Shown: positions 6,826-25,058 of the stretch, piece after piece
Numbering within the stretch: position 1 is the stretch's first letter
Layout: each line of letters opens with the position of its first letter
From: Sphaerotilus microaerophilus
Lineage (GTDB): Bacteria; Pseudomonadota; Gammaproteobacteria; Burkholderiales; Burkholderiaceae_C
Direction of reading: 5' to 3'
Assembly (NCBI RefSeq): GCF_023734135.1
Contig: NZ_AP025731.1
Span: 1-30,838, forward strand
DNA: 30,838 nt
Position numbers and translations under genes: made by a program
Notes under the pieces: generated by a model
Databases searched by the model: none
What the model saw: only the letters and a program-made list of their open reading frames with translations
What the model was told of the DNA's origin: nothing

Positions 6826-6856
6826 GCCGCCTCGCACCCCGAGGCGGCTTTTTTTT
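6826..6856 (+). terminator. Rho-independent terminator after traC
   Basis: Perfect 8-bp stem GCCGCCTC (6826-6833) / GAGGCGGC (6841-6848), 7-nt loop, then eight T residues (6849-6856). It ends the long traG-F-E-D-C transcript. The XhoI-type hexamer CTCGAG and the first small hairpin of the array follow directly. Confidence 0.9.
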
Positions 6857-6857
6857 G

Positions 6858-7009
6858 CTCGAGCATCGCCGCATCCGACGATGCCACCAGGCCCGCGCAC
6901 GTCGAGCTGCAGCATCGCCATTTCCGGCGATGCACGCCGGCGCGGTCGACCATCGCCAGTTCCGACGATGGCGGCCGCCCTGCCCGCCTGGATCTCGCAT
7001 CGCCATTTC
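6858..7009. repeat. Hairpin array A (interrupted by IS1071)
   Basis: Modules of CATCGCC-N6-GACGATG or GGCGATG type (20 bp, imperfect inverted repeats) lie at 6864-6883, 6913-6932 and 6951-6970. Each is directly preceded by a six-base palindrome: CTCGAG (6858), CTGCAG (6907), GTCGAC (6945). A fourth module starts at 6998 after GATCTCG and is cut after CATCGCCATTTC by the left end of IS1071. The order and hexamers match the arrays after trfA and kfrC. Function unknown; no coding potential supported. Confidence 0.85.
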
Positions 7010-7119
7010 GGGGTCTCCTCGTTTTCAGTGCAATAAGTGACGGTACGCAAAGCTAGCACTGGCGCGGGGGTGGTCTGGGTAGACCGTTGATTTCATTGAC
7101 TTTCCTGTTCGCTTTGTAA
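7010..7119 (+). repeat. IS1071 left terminal inverted repeat (about 110 bp)
   Basis: Matches the reverse complement of 10104-10213 with only a handful of mismatches, for example C versus A at 7048, and clusters around 7069-7085. The inner limit is approximate: similarity fades after the GACTTTCCTGTTC segment. The unusually long repeat, against about 38 bp in most Tn3 relatives, is a hallmark of IS1071. Confidence 0.92.
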
Positions 7120-7154
7120 ACGGGTATGGTGGCCTCCCACTTTTGAGGTTCACG

Positions 7155-10070
7155 ATGCAGGGTTGGCACACAACGTTTTTGGGGATGCGTGGGCTCCCCC
7201 GCGATATCAGCGACTTCGAGATGAAGGCATTTTTCACCTTCGATGGTGCCGAGCGCGACGCAATCAATGCACGCCGAGGTGATTCCCACAAGCTTGGTCT
7301 GGCGCTCCATATTGGTTTCCTGCGCATGAGTGGGCGTTTGCTCGGTGCCTTTCGGGTAATTCCAGTAGCCTTGTGGCGCCACCTTGGCAACGAGCTTGGC
7401 ATTGCAGCACCAGAAGTCGCCTCGCTGAGAGCCATGTATGAACGCGGGCGCACGCTATTCGATCACCAACAAGTAGCCTGCACGGTCCTTGGATTCCAGT
7501 GGATGAGCGAGCACCAGCGCCGCTCACTGGTACGTGAACTGCGCGACGAAGTGGCGCGCTGCGCCGACCGCGATCAGCTACTCGTGCGGGCGCGTCAATG
7601 GCTGTACAAGAACAAGCTGGTGATCGTGCACGAGCGGGCAATTCGGACACTGATTGCGGCGGCACTTGCCCAGCTTGAAGTTGAAACAGGCACCGCCATC
7701 GCCGCCAGCGTTGATCCAGCAACACTTGATCGCTGGCGAGCCTCAGTTTCAGAGCTGCGCCCAGATGGACAAACCCAGCAGAGTTGGCTATGGGCTGCAC
7801 CGGCGAAACACTCAACCCGCCAAATCAGCGAGGTACTGGAGCGCATCGACCTGCTTTACACGCTGGACGTTCATAAGCACCTGGCAGACATCCCCGATCT
7901 CATCTTGCGCCGCTACGCGCGCCGACTTGTCTCCAGGCCGCCCTCAGCCGGAGCCAAGATCAAAGAGCCAGCGCGCACCGTGGAGGTCGCATGCTTTCTT
8001 CGGTATTGCCTGTTCACCACCACAGACCAGTTGATCCTTATGGTGCAGCGCCGGATCGCCGATCTGTGGCGTCAGGCTGCCGCCGATGTCCCCGCTACCG
8101 TCAATTGGGCCGCAATGTACAAAACGCTGCTCGGCGAACTTGTTGCCTTGAGCGCGCAAGGTGCGGTGCCAGATGCTGAGTTGCGTGCCCGTCTTGAAGC
8201 CTTGATCACCGAAACCCAGAAACGCAAACCACCGAGCAGGGCCTCCCTGGTCCGCGAGGGATTGATTGATGGAATTCGCCCCGTGCGGTCGTTGCTCGTC
8301 GCCATTGCAAAGCTGCCCTGGCAGGCCACCGGCGAGCATCCTGCCATCGAGTACCTTGCCAAGCTGCAAGCTTTATATCTCAAAGGATCCAGAAAGCTGC
8401 CAGTTGAAGTGGTGGCACCAAGTCTGGGAATGATCTGGCAGGTTTCGATCTCCAGCCCAGACCGGGAACGGGCGTTTCAGGCGTTGGAGGTGGCCACCCT
8501 GTTTGCCCTGCGCCGCGCGGTGCGCAATGGCTCGGTCTGGATTGAGCACAGCCTGAGCTTTCGGGGTCGTGCGCGCTTGTTCTTCACGGACGAGCGTTGG
8601 CAGGCAGAGTCCAAGAAACACTATGCCCGTCTATCGTTACCCAGCAAGGCTGCCACTTTCTTGAAGCCTTTGCTGGCCAGAGTAACTGCCGGTGTCGATG
8701 CGGTGGCCGCTGCAGCCCGCAGTGGCGTACTGCGCGTGGATGATGAACTCCATTTGTCGCCATTGCCCGCAGAGGACGAAGACCCAGAAGTGACCAAGCT
8801 GCGCGCGGCTTTGGATCACCGCATCGGTGAGGTTCAATTGCCGGAAGTGATTCTGGCCGTTGACGCCCAGGTGCGCTTTAGCTGGATCATGCTCGGACGT
8901 GAGCCGCGCTCTACCGACGAGCTGCTGATGGTCTATGCCGGCATCATGGCCCACGGCACCAGTCTGACTGCGGTCGAATGCGCGCGCATGATTCCGCAAT
9001 TGTCTGCCACCAGCATTCGCCAGGCCATGCGCTGGGCGCGGGACGAACGGCGTCTGAGCCAGGCCTGCCAGGCTGTGCTGGAATTCATGCAGCGACACCC
9101 GATTGCCGCCACCTGGGGGCGGTCCGATTTGGCATCTTCTGACATGATGACCATGGAGACCACCAAACGGGTGTGGCAAGCCCGGCTTGATCCTCGGCGC
9201 AACACACCTTCCATTGGAATCTACTCCCATGTAAAAGACCGGTGGGGCATCTTCCATGCGCAGCCCTTTGTGCTCAATGAGCGCCAGGCGGGCGTGGCCA
9301 TTGAAGGTGTCATCCGCCAAGAAAAGCTGGAGACCAGCCAGCTTGCTGTGGATACCCATGGCTACACCGACTTTGCCATGTCACATGCCCGTTTGCTTGG
9401 TTTTGATCTTTGCCCGCGGTTGAAGGAACTCAAACAGCGCCACCTCTTTGTGCCACGCGGCACCAAAGTGCCCGCAGAAATCGCTGCGGTGTGCGAAGCC
9501 AATGTCGACGTCGCTTTGATCGAAAAGCATTGGGATAGTCTGGTGCACCTGGCAGCCTCGGTCATGAGCGGACATGCCAGTGCGGTGGCAGCTCTTGCGC
9601 GGTTCGGTTCTGCCGCCCAGGGCGATCCAATCTATGAGGCTGGCGTGCAATTGGGGCGGTTGCTGCGTACGGCGTTTTTGGCTGACTACTTTGTCAAGGA
9701 CGCTTTCAGGAACGAGTTGCGCCGGGTGCTCAATCGGGGCGAGGCTGTTAACGCCCTCAAGCGCGCCATTTATACCGGCCGGATCAGCCCGGCGCAGGCC
9801 AAACGTGTCGATGAAATGCAGGCTGTGGCCGATGCGTTGAGCCTGATGGCCAACATCGTGATGGCGTGGAATACCTCACAGATGCAGGCGGTCCTGGATC
9901 GCTGGTCGAACCGCCGCCAGGTCATTCCACCGGAACTGATCGGGAAGATTGCGCCCACCAGGCTGGAGAGCATCAACTTGCGGGGTGTGTTTCGCTTCCC
10001 GGTTGACCGCTATGCTGACCAAATCCTGCCTTCGCGGCCAAATGCATCGATAACTGGCACCAATGGATGA
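7155..10070 (+). CDS. tnpA: IS1071 transposase TnpA
   Basis: A 971-residue Tn3-family transposase, the size known for IS1071. The N-terminus has the family's DNA-binding start (GLPRDISDFEMKAFFTF). Likely catalytic DDE residues are D570 in AVDAQVRFSW, D733 in VDTHGYTDFAM and E863 in NRGEAVNALKRAIYTGR. Tn3-family enzymes use these for replicative transposition through a cointegrate; without a resolvase, resolution relies on host recombination, which favours deletions and rearrangements such as the one seen here. The ATG at 7155 is used; an in-frame TTG at 7143 would add four residues. The frame is intact, so the element may still be active. Confidence 0.95.
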   Translation: MQGWHTTFLGMRGLPRDISDFEMKAFFTFDGAERDAINARRGDSHKLGLALHIGFLRMSGRLLGAFRVIPVALWRHLGNELGIAAPEVASLRAMYERGRTLFDHQQVACTVLGFQWMSEHQRRSLVRELRDEVARCADRDQLLVRARQWLYKNKLVIVHERAIRTLIAAALAQLEVETGTAIAASVDPATLDRWRASVSELRPDGQTQQSWLWAAPAKHSTRQISEVLERIDLLYTLDVHKHLADIPDLILRRYARRLVSRPPSAGAKIKEPARTVEVACFLRYCLFTTTDQLILMVQRRIADLWRQAAADVPATVNWAAMYKTLLGELVALSAQGAVPDAELRARLEALITETQKRKPPSRASLVREGLIDGIRPVRSLLVAIAKLPWQATGEHPAIEYLAKLQALYLKGSRKLPVEVVAPSLGMIWQVSISSPDRERAFQALEVATLFALRRAVRNGSVWIEHSLSFRGRARLFFTDERWQAESKKHYARLSLPSKAATFLKPLLARVTAGVDAVAAAARSGVLRVDDELHLSPLPAEDEDPEVTKLRAALDHRIGEVQLPEVILAVDAQVRFSWIMLGREPRSTDELLMVYAGIMAHGTSLTAVECARMIPQLSATSIRQAMRWARDERRLSQACQAVLEFMQRHPIAATWGRSDLASSDMMTMETTKRVWQARLDPRRNTPSIGIYSHVKDRWGIFHAQPFVLNERQAGVAIEGVIRQEKLETSQLAVDTHGYTDFAMSHARLLGFDLCPRLKELKQRHLFVPRGTKVPAEIAAVCEANVDVALIEKHWDSLVHLAASVMSGHASAVAALARFGSAAQGDPIYEAGVQLGRLLRTAFLADYFVKDAFRNELRRVLNRGEAVNALKRAIYTGRISPAQAKRVDEMQAVADALSLMANIVMAWNTSQMQAVLDRWSNRRQVIPPELIGKIAPTRLESINLRGVFRFPVDRYADQILPSRPNASITGTNG

Positions 10071-10103
10071 AACCGACCACGGTTTGACGCCACGAATCGC
10101 AGA

Positions 10104-10213
10104 TTTGAAAGTGAACAGGAAAGTCAATGAAATCAACGATCTACCAACACCACCTCCGCGCCAGTGCTAGCTTTTCGTACCGTCACTTATTGCACTGAAA
10201 ACGAGGAGACCCC
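10104..10213 (-). repeat. IS1071 right terminal inverted repeat (about 110 bp)
   Basis: Inverted partner of 7010-7119. The outermost bases read GACCCC at 10208-10213. The tnpA stop at 10070 lies just inside it. Its outer edge abuts GTTCC, the leftover of the trbA-trbB region. Confidence 0.92.
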
Positions 10214-12667: not shown

Positions 12668-12697
12668 AGCCGCCCGAGATCGAGGCGGCTTTTTTTC
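12668..12697 (+). terminator. Terminator after trfA
   Basis: Stem AGCCGCC (12668-12674) / GGCGGCT (12684-12690) with a 9-nt loop and a run of seven Ts. As after traC and kfrC, CTCGAG and the first array hairpin follow immediately. Confidence 0.88.
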
Positions 12698-12911
12698 TCG
12701 AGCATCGCCGCTTCTGACGAGGGAGTTCCGGCCACCTGGTCGCGCGCACGTCGAGCTGCAGCATCGTCATTTCCGGCGAGGCTGGCCACGTCCAGGCCAC
12801 GGTCGACCATCGCCACCTTTGACGATGAACCGAGGGCCCCATCGCCAGTTCCGACGATGACGGCCGACGCCGGCGCTGGATCTCGCATCGCCGCTTCTGA
12901 CGATGAGATCC
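12697..12911. repeat. Hairpin array B after trfA
   Basis: Five 20-bp modules of CATCGCC-N6-GACGATG type at 12703, 12762, 12808, 12840 and 12886. The first three are headed by CTCGAG (12697), CTGCAG (12756) and GTCGAC (12802). The last is enclosed by GGATCTC and GAGATCC, making a larger hairpin of about 34 bp. The linker GCGCGCACGTCGAG before CTGCAG is almost identical to that in array A, so arrays A and B are duplicated copies. Function unknown. Confidence 0.85.
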
Positions 12912-13330
12912 ACCCTTTGACACTTGAGGGGCCGAGCTGCGGGGGATTCTCCCGGCCGGCGGCCGCGAGAACCGGCTATGTCGTGCTGCGCATCGAGCCA
13001 GGCGGCAGAGCCGCCCGTCTCGCCCCTGGCGGGCTTCCAGCGCCTTCCCGACGCTCACCGGGCCGGTGGCCCTCGCCGCTGGGCTTTGCGGCCCTGACGG
13101 GCCTTCCTGGCCCGTTTCCGGGGCCTTCCCTGCCCTGCCCCACCGGCGCGGCCGTTGTGGACAGTTTCGGGACAAGTCGGCCGAGGCCGGCCGGCGCAGC
13201 CCTGACGTTGACACTTGAGGGGCAGCGGGGCCGGCGCGATGTTGACACTTGGGGGGCAGCGGCCGATTTCGGCCTGGTCGAGCCGTCCAGGCGGCCGCCG
13301 AGGCGGCCTAAGTGCCTGATCGGCATGGAG

Positions 13331-15439: not shown

Positions 15440-16648
15440 ATGGCGAAGAAACGCAAGACGCCGGCCCAGCCGGGCCAGGACTGGAACGCGCCGGCGGCCG
15501 AGCTGCTGGCCGAGCTGCCCACCGAACGCGACGAGCTGCTGGCCGCCGCCGTGGCGGCCGTGGTGGAGATCGACGCGGCGATCATGCGCGGCGACGGTGC
15601 GGCCGCCGAGGCGGCCAGCGACCGATACGAGGCCGTCATCTGGAAGATGAACGGCGGAACGCACGTGGGCAGCATGGCCGACCACGACGCGCCCGGCCAG
15701 GTCATCGAGCGCCATTGCGCGGCGGTGCCTGGCGACGTGCCCTTGTGGGGCCAGCGCGGCCAGTTCCTGGTCGCGGATGGCGACATGCGCGCCCTGGTGG
15801 AGTACGAGGCCGGCTACGGCGGGCCGCTGGGTGCCCACTTCCAGTTCCACGTCATCGACCTGGACAGGCCGTTTATCTCCGAAACGGGCTACCGCTCGCA
15901 CTTCGACACGGCGCAGGGCTGCATGACGGTGGACGAGGTTGCGCGCGGCATCCTGGCTGCGCAGCGAGCCGAGAAGAAGCGCCCGGTGATGGTCGAGGCC
16001 AGCTACCGCGACCGCCTGGCCGATGCTCCCCTGCCCGCTTGGCTGGCCGGCCTGGAGCCGCCGGCGCGGCGCGAACCGGCGACCGTCCTGGTGCCGCCGG
16101 GGTTCGTCCTGGTCGATGTGGTGCTGCCCTCGCATCGGGCCTTCATCGCCAGGCGCTGGGCGGCCGAGGCCGCGACCAGGATCAAGGCGGCCAGGGCCGC
16201 CGGGTTGGACGCCAAGGGAAAAATCACCGGCGCAGGCCCGGAGCGAGATCCCGCATCGCCAGAAACGACGATGACCTGCAGCATCGTCAAAGCCGACGAT
16301 GCCGAGCCGGTCGAGGGCGGGCCTGTATCGCCGGAAACGACGATGCCGGGAGCGAGCGCGGCAACCTGCAGCATCGCCAGGAATGGCGATGGAGGCCCGG
16401 CCGACCGGGTGGAGTTCAAGCCCGGCCAGCGGTGCGAGATCGTGAGCGTCCATCACCCGGTTTTCGACCGCTACATCGGCAAGCGCATCATCATCGTGAA
16501 GGTGCATCCCGACACCCGCCAGGTGTGGGCGCACGACGACAGGCCGGTAACGTACAAGACCAATCGCGCAGGCCGGCGCGTGGTCGATTCAGACCCGAGC
16601 TGCATCCAGTCGATCTACGGCTTCGACCAGTTGCGGCTTATCACTTGA
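15440..16648 (+). CDS. klcB: KlcB
   Basis: A 402-residue protein at the klcB position of the klcA operon; its function is unknown in the family. ATG 15440 was preferred over an in-frame TTG at 15425, which lies inside the iteron. Three parts are visible: residues 1 to about 215 with no recognised motif; residues about 218-249 (VPPGFVLVDVVLPSHRAFIARRW), matching the C-terminal domain of KorA and TrbA; then residues about 272-318, the translation of four 20-bp hairpin repeats (16254-16391), giving low-complexity PETTM/CSI motifs; and a C-terminal domain (RVEFKPGQRCEIVSVHHPVFDRYIGKRIIIVKVHPDTRQVWAHDDRP) that looks like a small beta-barrel. It is probably tied to the kor network through the KorA-like segment, but no DNA-binding helix-turn-helix is obvious. 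Confidence 0.88.
   Translation: MAKKRKTPAQPGQDWNAPAAELLAELPTERDELLAAAVAAVVEIDAAIMRGDGAAAEAASDRYEAVIWKMNGGTHVGSMADHDAPGQVIERHCAAVPGDVPLWGQRGQFLVADGDMRALVEYEAGYGGPLGAHFQFHVIDLDRPFISETGYRSHFDTAQGCMTVDEVARGILAAQRAEKKRPVMVEASYRDRLADAPLPAWLAGLEPPARREPATVLVPPGFVLVDVVLPSHRAFIARRWAAEAATRIKAARAAGLDAKGKITGAGPERDPASPETTMTCSIVKADDAEPVEGGPVSPETTMPGASAATCSIARNGDGGPADRVEFKPGQRCEIVSVHHPVFDRYIGKRIIIVKVHPDTRQVWAHDDRPVTYKTNRAGRRVVDSDPSCIQSIYGFDQLRLIT
16254..16391. repeat. Hairpin array D inside klcB
   Basis: Four 20-bp modules at 16254-16273, 16282-16301, 16326-16345 and 16372-16391; two are headed by CTGCAG (16276, 16366). The first is preceded by GAGATCCCG exactly as the last module of array C (23094). Unlike arrays A-C it is within an open reading frame, which it does not disrupt. 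Confidence 0.85.
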
Positions 16649-22921: not shown

Positions 22922-22946
22922 AAAGCCCGGCACTGCCGGGCTTTTT
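22922..22946 (+). terminator. Terminator after kfrC
   Basis: AAAGCCCGGC / GCCGGGCTTT, a 10-bp perfect stem with a 3-nt loop and a T run (22942-22946). CTCGAG (22948) and array C follow, the same order as after traC and trfA. Confidence 0.93.
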
Positions 22947-22947
22947 C

Positions 22948-23121
22948 CTCGAGCCTCGCCGTTTCCGGCGATGCAGGCCCGCCGCTGGCGGCATCCTGCA
23001 GCACCGTCATTCCCGACGATGCAAGGGGCTGGCCAGCCTCGCCAGTTCCGGCGATGCCGCCGGCGCGGTCGACCATCGCCATTTCTGACGATGAGATCCC
23101 GCATCGCCATCTACAGCGATG
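22948..23121. repeat. Hairpin array C between kfrC and traM
   Basis: Five 20-bp modules at 22954, 23002, 23037, 23074 and 23102. CTCGAG (22948), CTGCAG (22996) and GTCGAC (23068) head three of them; GAGATCCCG precedes the last. The final module (23102-23121) runs into the 3' end of traM, whose stop (complement of 23111-23113) lies within it. The array separates the convergent kfr and traMLK operons. Confidence 0.86.
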
Positions 23122-24914: not shown

Positions 24915-24926
24915 GGCGGGCAGGAT
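24915..24926 (-). promoter_or_regulatory. nic: nic site of oriT
   Basis: Minus-strand reading ATCCTG (complement of 24921-24926) followed by CCCGCC. In RP4, TraI cuts ATCCTG^C and stays bound to the 5' end through Tyr22, which is conserved in this TraI. Leading transfer should carry traK, L and M into the recipient either first or last depending on strand; in RP4 the traJ/traI side enters last. Confidence 0.9.
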
Positions 24927-24939
24927 GTGCGAAGTTAGC

Positions 24940-24957
24940 TAACCGGCGGGCCGGTTA
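24940..24957. promoter_or_regulatory. TraJ-type inverted repeat beside nic
   Basis: Perfect 8-bp arms TAACCGGC / GCCGGTTA with a 2-bp centre, 13 bp from nic. RP4 has a 19-bp imperfect inverted repeat at this place, and its nic-proximal arm is bound by TraJ. Confidence 0.82.
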
Positions 24958-25058
24958 TCTATCTTCGCTGTCCCTTATTCGCGCCTGCGGCACTCAACGG
25001 GCATCCTGCTCTGCGAGGCTGCCGGCTACCGCCGGCCAAGAAGCGAGAGACGAACGAC

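Follow-up and report, generated by a model that had tools for sequence, protein, structure and literature searches.

Dyad arrays of IncP-1 beta plasmids as candidate cis-acting sites for a family of small orphan adenine methyltransferases

The 30,838-nucleotide stretch of Sphaerotilus microaerophilus DNA analyzed here (contig NZ_AP025731.1; the whole stretch is called the window below) carries an IncP-1 beta plasmid backbone with arrays of short inverted repeats at several operon ends. In IncP-1 plasmids, the unit that repeats is a dyad of 20 bp (CATCGYCR-N4-YGRCGATG), in many cases with a six-base palindrome at its head. In a wider set of replicons, arrays of such modules lie mostly just upstream of the gene for a compact adenine methylase (Upf31.0 in IncP-1 beta), and in IncP-1 beta and some phages they also occupy a few other spots of the replicon, often gene ends. 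Judging from sequence comparisons, the arrays may be cis-acting clusters of duplex sites for this small family of orphan adenine methyltransferases (MTases), a reading that we put forward as the leading one, but tentatively.

Linkage of the arrays to a compact methylase

The upf31.0 product is a D12-class adenine methylase that scores 26.8 bits against PF02086 (gathering score 22) and 27.9 bits against the Dam family model TIGR00571, which is below the cut-off of 114.85. Most members of the family have 215-242 amino acids. Modules accompany its relatives outside IncP plasmids as well. A Chloroflexi contig (L011) has four dyads in the 3' end of its Upf31.0 homologue, and a second homologue in Chloroflexi (L126) has dyads, CTCGAG and CTGCAG directly upstream. 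P2-like phages (within L155-L234) show arrangements such as dyad-GGTACC-dyad-TGGCCA-ATCGAG-dyad-CTGCAG directly before the methylase gene. Plasmids of Vibrio and Shewanella have modules upstream of the gene and those of Sphingobium (two) and Acinetobacter (one) downstream of it, with CATAGAC-type arms. At three loci (L352, L354 and L126) modules were seen inside the methylase reading frame itself.

A module was called at methylase loci when at most two of 12 fixed positions were off and a palindrome was adjacent. By this measure, the five groups of the compact family had modules at 80 of 80, 12 of 13, 4 of 4, 5 of 6 and 4 of 6 loci, and their totals of 333, 37, 13, 12 and 12 modules compare with control means of 15.3, 2.3, 1.7, 3.0 and 1.7. 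Other D12-type matches, which are weak or partial and belong mostly to larger proteins of putative function, are little above chance: in two sets of partial matches, 4 of 23 and 12 of 46 loci had a module (4 and 17 modules, against 3.3 and 10 in the controls). After dereplication, 43 of 52 methylases had at least two modules in the range from 1.2 kb before to 1.9 kb after the gene start, five had one and four had none; four short rows, one of them (L391) with modules, were dropped from this count.

The association can also be read from the array side. When a viral collection was scanned for arrays only, a methylase lay less than 400 bp downstream in 86 of 107 cases. Two of the others were cut by the locus end, and the remaining 19 lacked a methylase downstream; by eye, five of these were judged chance matches and most others further copies in the same phage type. 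Exact pairs of the CATCG type were found in no stretch of this collection, and exact pairs of the CATAG type in one, whose contig also yielded part of a methylase. Among relatives, the methylase-bearing replicons pBP136, R751 (50 kb), SEN5 (22 kb) and SW3 (29 kb) had 5, 5, 3 and 1 clusters. P2, 186, P4, pBS228 (IncP-1 alpha) and pEST4011 (delta) had neither a methylase of the Upf31 family nor a cluster of at least two modules. The full records of pBS228 and pEST4011 contained no array, and pEST4011 encodes a different adenine methylase beside a NotI-type endonuclease. In SEN5, clusters are found upstream of the methylase gene, within gene A and between convergent genes, an arrangement similar to that of IncP-1. 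The window, pBP136, R751, SEN5 and SW3 all contain two or more 20-bp dyads within 90 bp that have six-base palindromes next to them; pBP136 and R751 have the compact MTase on the same replicon, and the window has no MTase match.

The variable dyad base also tracks the phylogeny of the methylase. At position 4 of the half-site, the class (C, A or mixed) changes five times on the methylase tree, compared with 13-22 times in shuffles (42 labelled rows, 300 shuffles; the tree came with a warning of long branches). The IncP-1 beta and the two Chloroflexi methylases form one 10-row group with support of 100/100, all with C at position 4. Because one array adjoins the methylase gene, this match fits recognition but also joint inheritance. 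Comparing linked and unlinked dyads within phage loci was uninformative here, since just 1 of 31 distinct patterns was of the A class.

Conservation of the modules and scarcity of palindromes elsewhere

Across methylase-linked loci, the general half-site is CAYNGNCR, two inverted copies of which stand four bases apart. Among 93 distinct 14-nt upstream flanks from 124 arrays, a six-base palindrome stood at offset 0 in 46 and at offset 1 in 16, with 0-5 at each of offsets 2-8, a count that is biased in that the orientation of each array was chosen by its own hexamers, and that leaves out 15 loci judged by eye to be non-arrays, L011 among them. The placement of palindromes before dyads is not due to chance. 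Several different hexamers head the dyads (CTGCAG, CTCGAG, GTCGAC, GGGCCC, TGGCCA and GAGCTC), so that what persists is a palindrome and not one particular sequence; it is missing from modules headed by GGATCTCG, AGATCCCG or GGGCCTG. In arrays picked by the neighboring gene only (12, 18 and 11 arrays, 8 distinct each), the mean pairwise difference was 0.025-0.037 for the arms, 0.007-0.071 for the six upstream bases, 0.19-0.26 for the centers and 0.075-0.123 for the linkers.

The first-pass annotation of the window had described the dyads as hairpins whose stems are kept by compensated changes. In the IncP-1 set this could not be confirmed. The pairs at position 6 of 89 distinct 20-mers were CG in 28, TA in 15, CA in 34 and TG in 12 cases, so that most differences are uncompensated. 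When the halves of 84 dyads were re-paired, there was no covariation above re-pairing at any variable position (matched halves 42 against a re-paired mean of 43.0 at position 6, and 31 against 41.2 at position 8). The half-sites in these dyads therefore vary independently, and the claim lacks support there. Among the roles that had been offered for the arrays, that of protein-binding islands has the best support, given that arms and hexamers stay conserved, centers drift and IncP-1 half-sites vary singly; the binding itself we infer.

These data bear on the alternative that the hairpins act as folded single strands, either as RNA 3' ends or as single-stranded DNA in conjugation or rolling-circle replication. 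P2-like gene A phages and conjugative plasmids do pass through single-stranded forms. The modules of all five R751 arrays (L001) stand hexamer-first on the same plasmid strand, though the trb/upf30.5 operon runs opposite, and position 4 of P2-like dyads is matched in 63 of 144 cases, against a re-paired mean of 40.0 that no re-pairing out of 1000 raised to that number. However, the IncP-1 dyads do not covary, the loop orientation differs between arrays, and a loopless six-base palindrome can act only as a duplex or between two strands. We consider folding an improbable explanation overall, although P2-like phage dyads may fold, given their matching at position 4.

Outside the arrays, several of the palindromes are nearly absent. 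In pBP136, the first 50 kb of R751 and the window (the cargo regions of the latter two set aside), CTGCAG occurs 5-6 times and CTCGAG 2-4 times in arrays and neither occurs in the backbone, where a mononucleotide expectation is 9-14 each. GTCGAC and TGGCCA are almost as one-sided, with 0-1 and 0-2 backbone copies. A/T-containing palindromes in pBP136 reach 13.8 per kb in arrays versus 2.5 per kb outside. The earlier statement that six-base palindromes are scarce in IncP-1 backbones is thus right for hexamers with A or T when these are taken together, but CGGCCG and GCCGGC are instead enriched in the IncP-1 beta backbone. In 60 dereplicated phage loci (beside-dyad part 123 kb at a loose threshold; expectation elsewhere 157 for each hexamer), the counts beside dyads and elsewhere were 90 and 28 for TGGCCA, 67 and 49 for GGTACC, 80 and 102 for CTGCAG, and 79 and 240 for CAGCTG. 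TGGCCA and GGTACC therefore behave as in IncP-1, and CAGCTG does not.

Arrays in the window and on other replicons

The arrays noted in the first-pass annotation at the ends of traC, trfA and kfrC are present in the orientation described, each preceded by a terminator-like hairpin with T-run and by CTCGAG (Table 1). A fourth window array, inside klcB (dyads spanning 16254-16391), had been overlooked; R751 and pBP136 have a fifth beside upf31.0. A TrfA-type iteron at 12918 lies 3' of the trfA-end array, and an additional short cluster of modules in trfA was taken as chance. A two-dyad pattern matched five times in the window and not once in any of 100 dinucleotide shuffles, so that the proposed shuffle control gave no comparable arrays. 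The hexamer order said to be the same at the three operon ends is shared only in part, since trfA and kfrC each have one further module (headed by GGGCCC and TGGCCAg, respectively) and some arrays are hybrids (L018, L106). Inheritance of the unit as a whole is likewise partly right, as modules also shuffle and drop out (L018, L106; L003 compared with L004).

Table 1. Arrays, preceding hairpins and the inserted element in the window.
Feature	Position	Strand	Details
Terminator-like hairpin + T-run, traC operon	6826..6856	+	Directly before array T; read by eye
Array T (traC end)	6858..7009	+	CTCGAG-dyad 6864-6883, CTGCAG-dyad 6913-6932, GTCGAC-dyad 6951-6970, GGATCTCG-part dyad 6998-7009
IS1071	7010..10213	+	Inside center of fourth dyad of array T; left end 7010, right end 10213 (terminal repeats located)
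Terminator-like hairpin + T-run after trfA	12669..12696	+	Read by eye
Array F (trfA end)	12697..12911	+	Five dyads at 12703, 12762, 12808, 12840, 12886; heads CTCGAG, CTGCAG, GTCGAC, GGGCCC, GGATCTCG
Array B, inside klcB (15440-16645)	16245..16391	+	Dyads at 16254, 16282, 16326, 16372; CTGCAG at 16276 and 16366
Terminator-like hairpin + T-run after kfrC	22922..22946	+	Read by eye
Array K (kfrC end)	22948..23121	+	Dyads at 22954, 23002, 23037, 23074, 23102; heads CTCGAG, CTGCAG, TGGCCAg, GTCGAC, AGATCCCG

The tra, trfA, ssb, trbA, klc, kle, kor, incC and kfr genes of the window match R751 or pTB30 proteins. trbA is the sole trb gene matched among those tested; no window protein matched the 12 other trb proteins tested, upf30.5, upf31.0 or the ParA resolvase. 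traE (topoisomerase III) is split over both window ends, which match its residues 1-147 and 153-686. Joining the ends gave no unbroken traE frame, with about five codons missing, so the circularity assumed earlier is not established. A traJ-II cis-regulatory RNA (RF01760) at 24918-25020 was the only match of an Rfam scan of the window.

The arrays could also be recombination or insertion hot spots for cargo, a role that has reportedly been suggested for those of R751. They lie at both classic cargo regions, and the window's own IS1071 sits in one of them. Its transposase shares 99.9% identity with the one annotated for IS1071 in pTB30. Of the 40 plasmid records listed for a 201-bp query spanning the junction with array T, 13 matched it at 100%, so the insertion probably goes back to one old event. 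However, among 60 listed places at the tra-trb region (2151 records matched), 34 begin or end at query 965-1083, which covers the start of the resolvase and DNA upstream of it. The array itself (query 1130-1341) contains no such endpoint apart from those of two pBP136-type rows that end at 1237, and the traC-end array of pBP136 is intact. This list is ranked, includes many related plasmids, and does not show breaks within rows made of several pieces. At trfA, none of 60 listed places (of 2477 matching records) begins or ends inside the array, with multi-piece breaks again not visible. A role as cargo recombination sites is thus not borne out at the tra-trb hot spot, and we regard it as very unlikely in general. 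In pBP136, a ParA-type resolvase lies beside the traC array (L116:26012-26990). Insertion hot spots of IncP-1 are mentioned in PMC7728920 and PMC4914505 and IncP-1 cargo regions in PMC3614916; the parts of these papers that were available name no such arrays.

Beyond the window, a pair-of-dyads scan of genome contigs from 84,980 species gave 111 stretches, of which 73 carry a gene of the IncP backbone (60% identity or higher), 7 the resolvase only and 31 neither; the latter include chromosomal islands and some stretches that look like chance. An array query matched 1849 plasmid records altogether. In two enterobacterial resistance plasmids that were read, the R751-type traC array of IncP-1 beta (L003:6046-6205 and L004:5046-5257) and the resolvase adjoin IS26 and ISVsa3 (ISCR2). 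Arrays that ride on such ISVsa3-linked resistance regions therefore mark an IncP-1 origin there.

Arrays were also seen on chromosomal islands (L101:300-6778, L119, L087, L091/L032, L043, L046, L074 and L085), which have traK- and trbL-like matches and, in L101, an IncQ-type RepC (PF06504) and a NikA-like protein. Perfect KorB operators (TTTAGCSGCTAAA) and TrfA iterons (TGACACTTGAGGGGC) occur in seven of the eight island loci scanned, the exception being L032, and the P. carbonaria copy lies 3' of a GMP synthase gene and a phage-type integrase. These islands look like satellites tuned to IncP-1 plasmids. No Upf31 match was found in the island stretches searched.

As the arrays follow terminator-like hairpins, they might be plain terminators or chromosomal palindromes like the repetitive extragenic palindromic (REP) elements, which we disfavor as highly improbable. 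There is no T-run after the window dyads, arrays also occur inside genes, and exact dyads number just 2-17 per genome in 16 genomes chosen for carrying one of the matches. REP-like chromosomal amplification was rejected on this count.

A tentative model and its relation to known systems

Our preferred reading suggests the following course of events. A dimer of the methylase, or a co-evolving partner, would bind the dyads as double-stranded DNA and modify or shield the adjacent palindromes. The replicon could thereby keep a few restriction-type palindromes that are purged elsewhere. These might serve as switches set by methylation close to promoters and the ends of operons, or else as restriction sites that are protected or act as decoys. 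Restriction and plasmid methylases are treated in PMC11602122. Since the array is usually just upstream of the methylase gene, autoregulation of this gene would be the likeliest single role, with restriction evasion as a possible broader use. Arrays on replicons without the gene, such as the window, the chromosomal islands and the ISVsa3-linked copies, may be left-overs or sites served in trans.

The chief rival holds that methylase gene and array form one mobile cassette, and that the arrays are selfish repeats spread through duplication and recombination, of which the one beside the gene controls it and the others have no job. It would account for the shuffling and loss of modules described above, for arrays on islands and ISVsa3-linked DNA without a methylase gene, and for the array-bearing part of phage gene A, a variable in-frame linker that is shorter in some relatives. 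On the other hand, unlinked sites also show conserved arms and hexamers, the arrays retain palindromes that the plasmid has purged elsewhere, and no array-owned transposase or target duplication was noticed, although no search was aimed at one. We think this rival somewhat unlikely.

Several findings weigh against methylase site clusters. Partial D12-type matches in genomes are themselves somewhat above control (17 versus 10 modules). The four methylases without a module in range belong to plasmids of Methylorubrum, Methylomonas and Acinetobacter and to one genome; the Acinetobacter one has a single module 1.9 kb downstream. Arrays occur without an Upf31 match in the stretches searched on islands of Pseudomonas, Cupriavidus and a Burkholderiales metagenome-assembled genome. 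The hexamers of the traC-end arrays (0.071) are about as variable as the linkers there (0.075). Some hexamers (GGGCCC) have no adenine, and A2 is lost in some half-sites. CAGCTG is used beside phage dyads, yet it is not purged elsewhere. The position-4 matching in P2-like dyads would also come from a folded stem or common descent, and, given the adjacency of array and gene, linked inheritance alone could produce the tree match.

A bolder version of the methylase reading is that an orphan MTase without the classical recognition insert takes its specificity from replicon-encoded dyad arrays and marks or shields the neighboring hexamers, giving an epigenetic restriction-evasion code at gene ends that would be common to plasmids, phages and Chloroflexi and perhaps be used in trans by satellites. 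We hold this version with considerable doubt. If true, it would show a compact methyltransferase acquiring its targets by a new route, and could explain why palindrome-purged backbones keep a handful of palindromes in tight clusters. The architecture shared across plasmids, phages and two phyla also offers a testable partner for both methylase and arrays. The records viewed label Upf31.0 and its relatives in phages only as hypothetical protein or DNA methylase and mostly leave the arrays unannotated.

Known systems resemble parts of this one. The GC-rich palindromes of Neurospora mitochondrial DNA contain PstI sites, and thus a restriction-type hexamer in palindromes that flank genes, a likeness by analogy only. 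REP elements, which go with RAYT transposases, are likewise short palindromes at gene ends; in contrast to them, the arrays described here are plasmid- or phage-borne, contain palindromic hexamers, are linked to a methylase and do not reach a high chromosomal copy number. Among the Dam/D12 N6-adenine methyltransferases (PF02086; E. coli Dam, T4Dam, DpnM), the Upf31.0 family stands out as compact. Model residues 1-170 of the compact methylase match span Dam residues 8-270, so that about 90 residues are absent, and its two C-terminal helices lie outside the match. The best reading of Upf31.0 is a Dam-fold orphan MTase without the recognition insert of Dam.

In the literature searched, in which subscription journals were little covered, nothing was found on the module, on its link to the methylase, or on relatives in phages or Chloroflexi. 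For IncP-1 beta R751, Thorsted and colleagues are said to have described in 1998 (J Mol Biol 282:969) a family of repeated sequences at insertion hot spots, and these repeats are very probably the present arrays. The window arrays fit this family, lying at trfA/oriV and in the tra-trb region of an IncP-1 beta backbone. The explanation reportedly offered was an insertion hot spot, and the dyad-palindrome module, the methylase link and the phage and Chloroflexi relatives are not known to be part of that description. The IncP-1 repeats alone would thus be already known, and the methylase-linked array system, if confirmed, would be a new kind.
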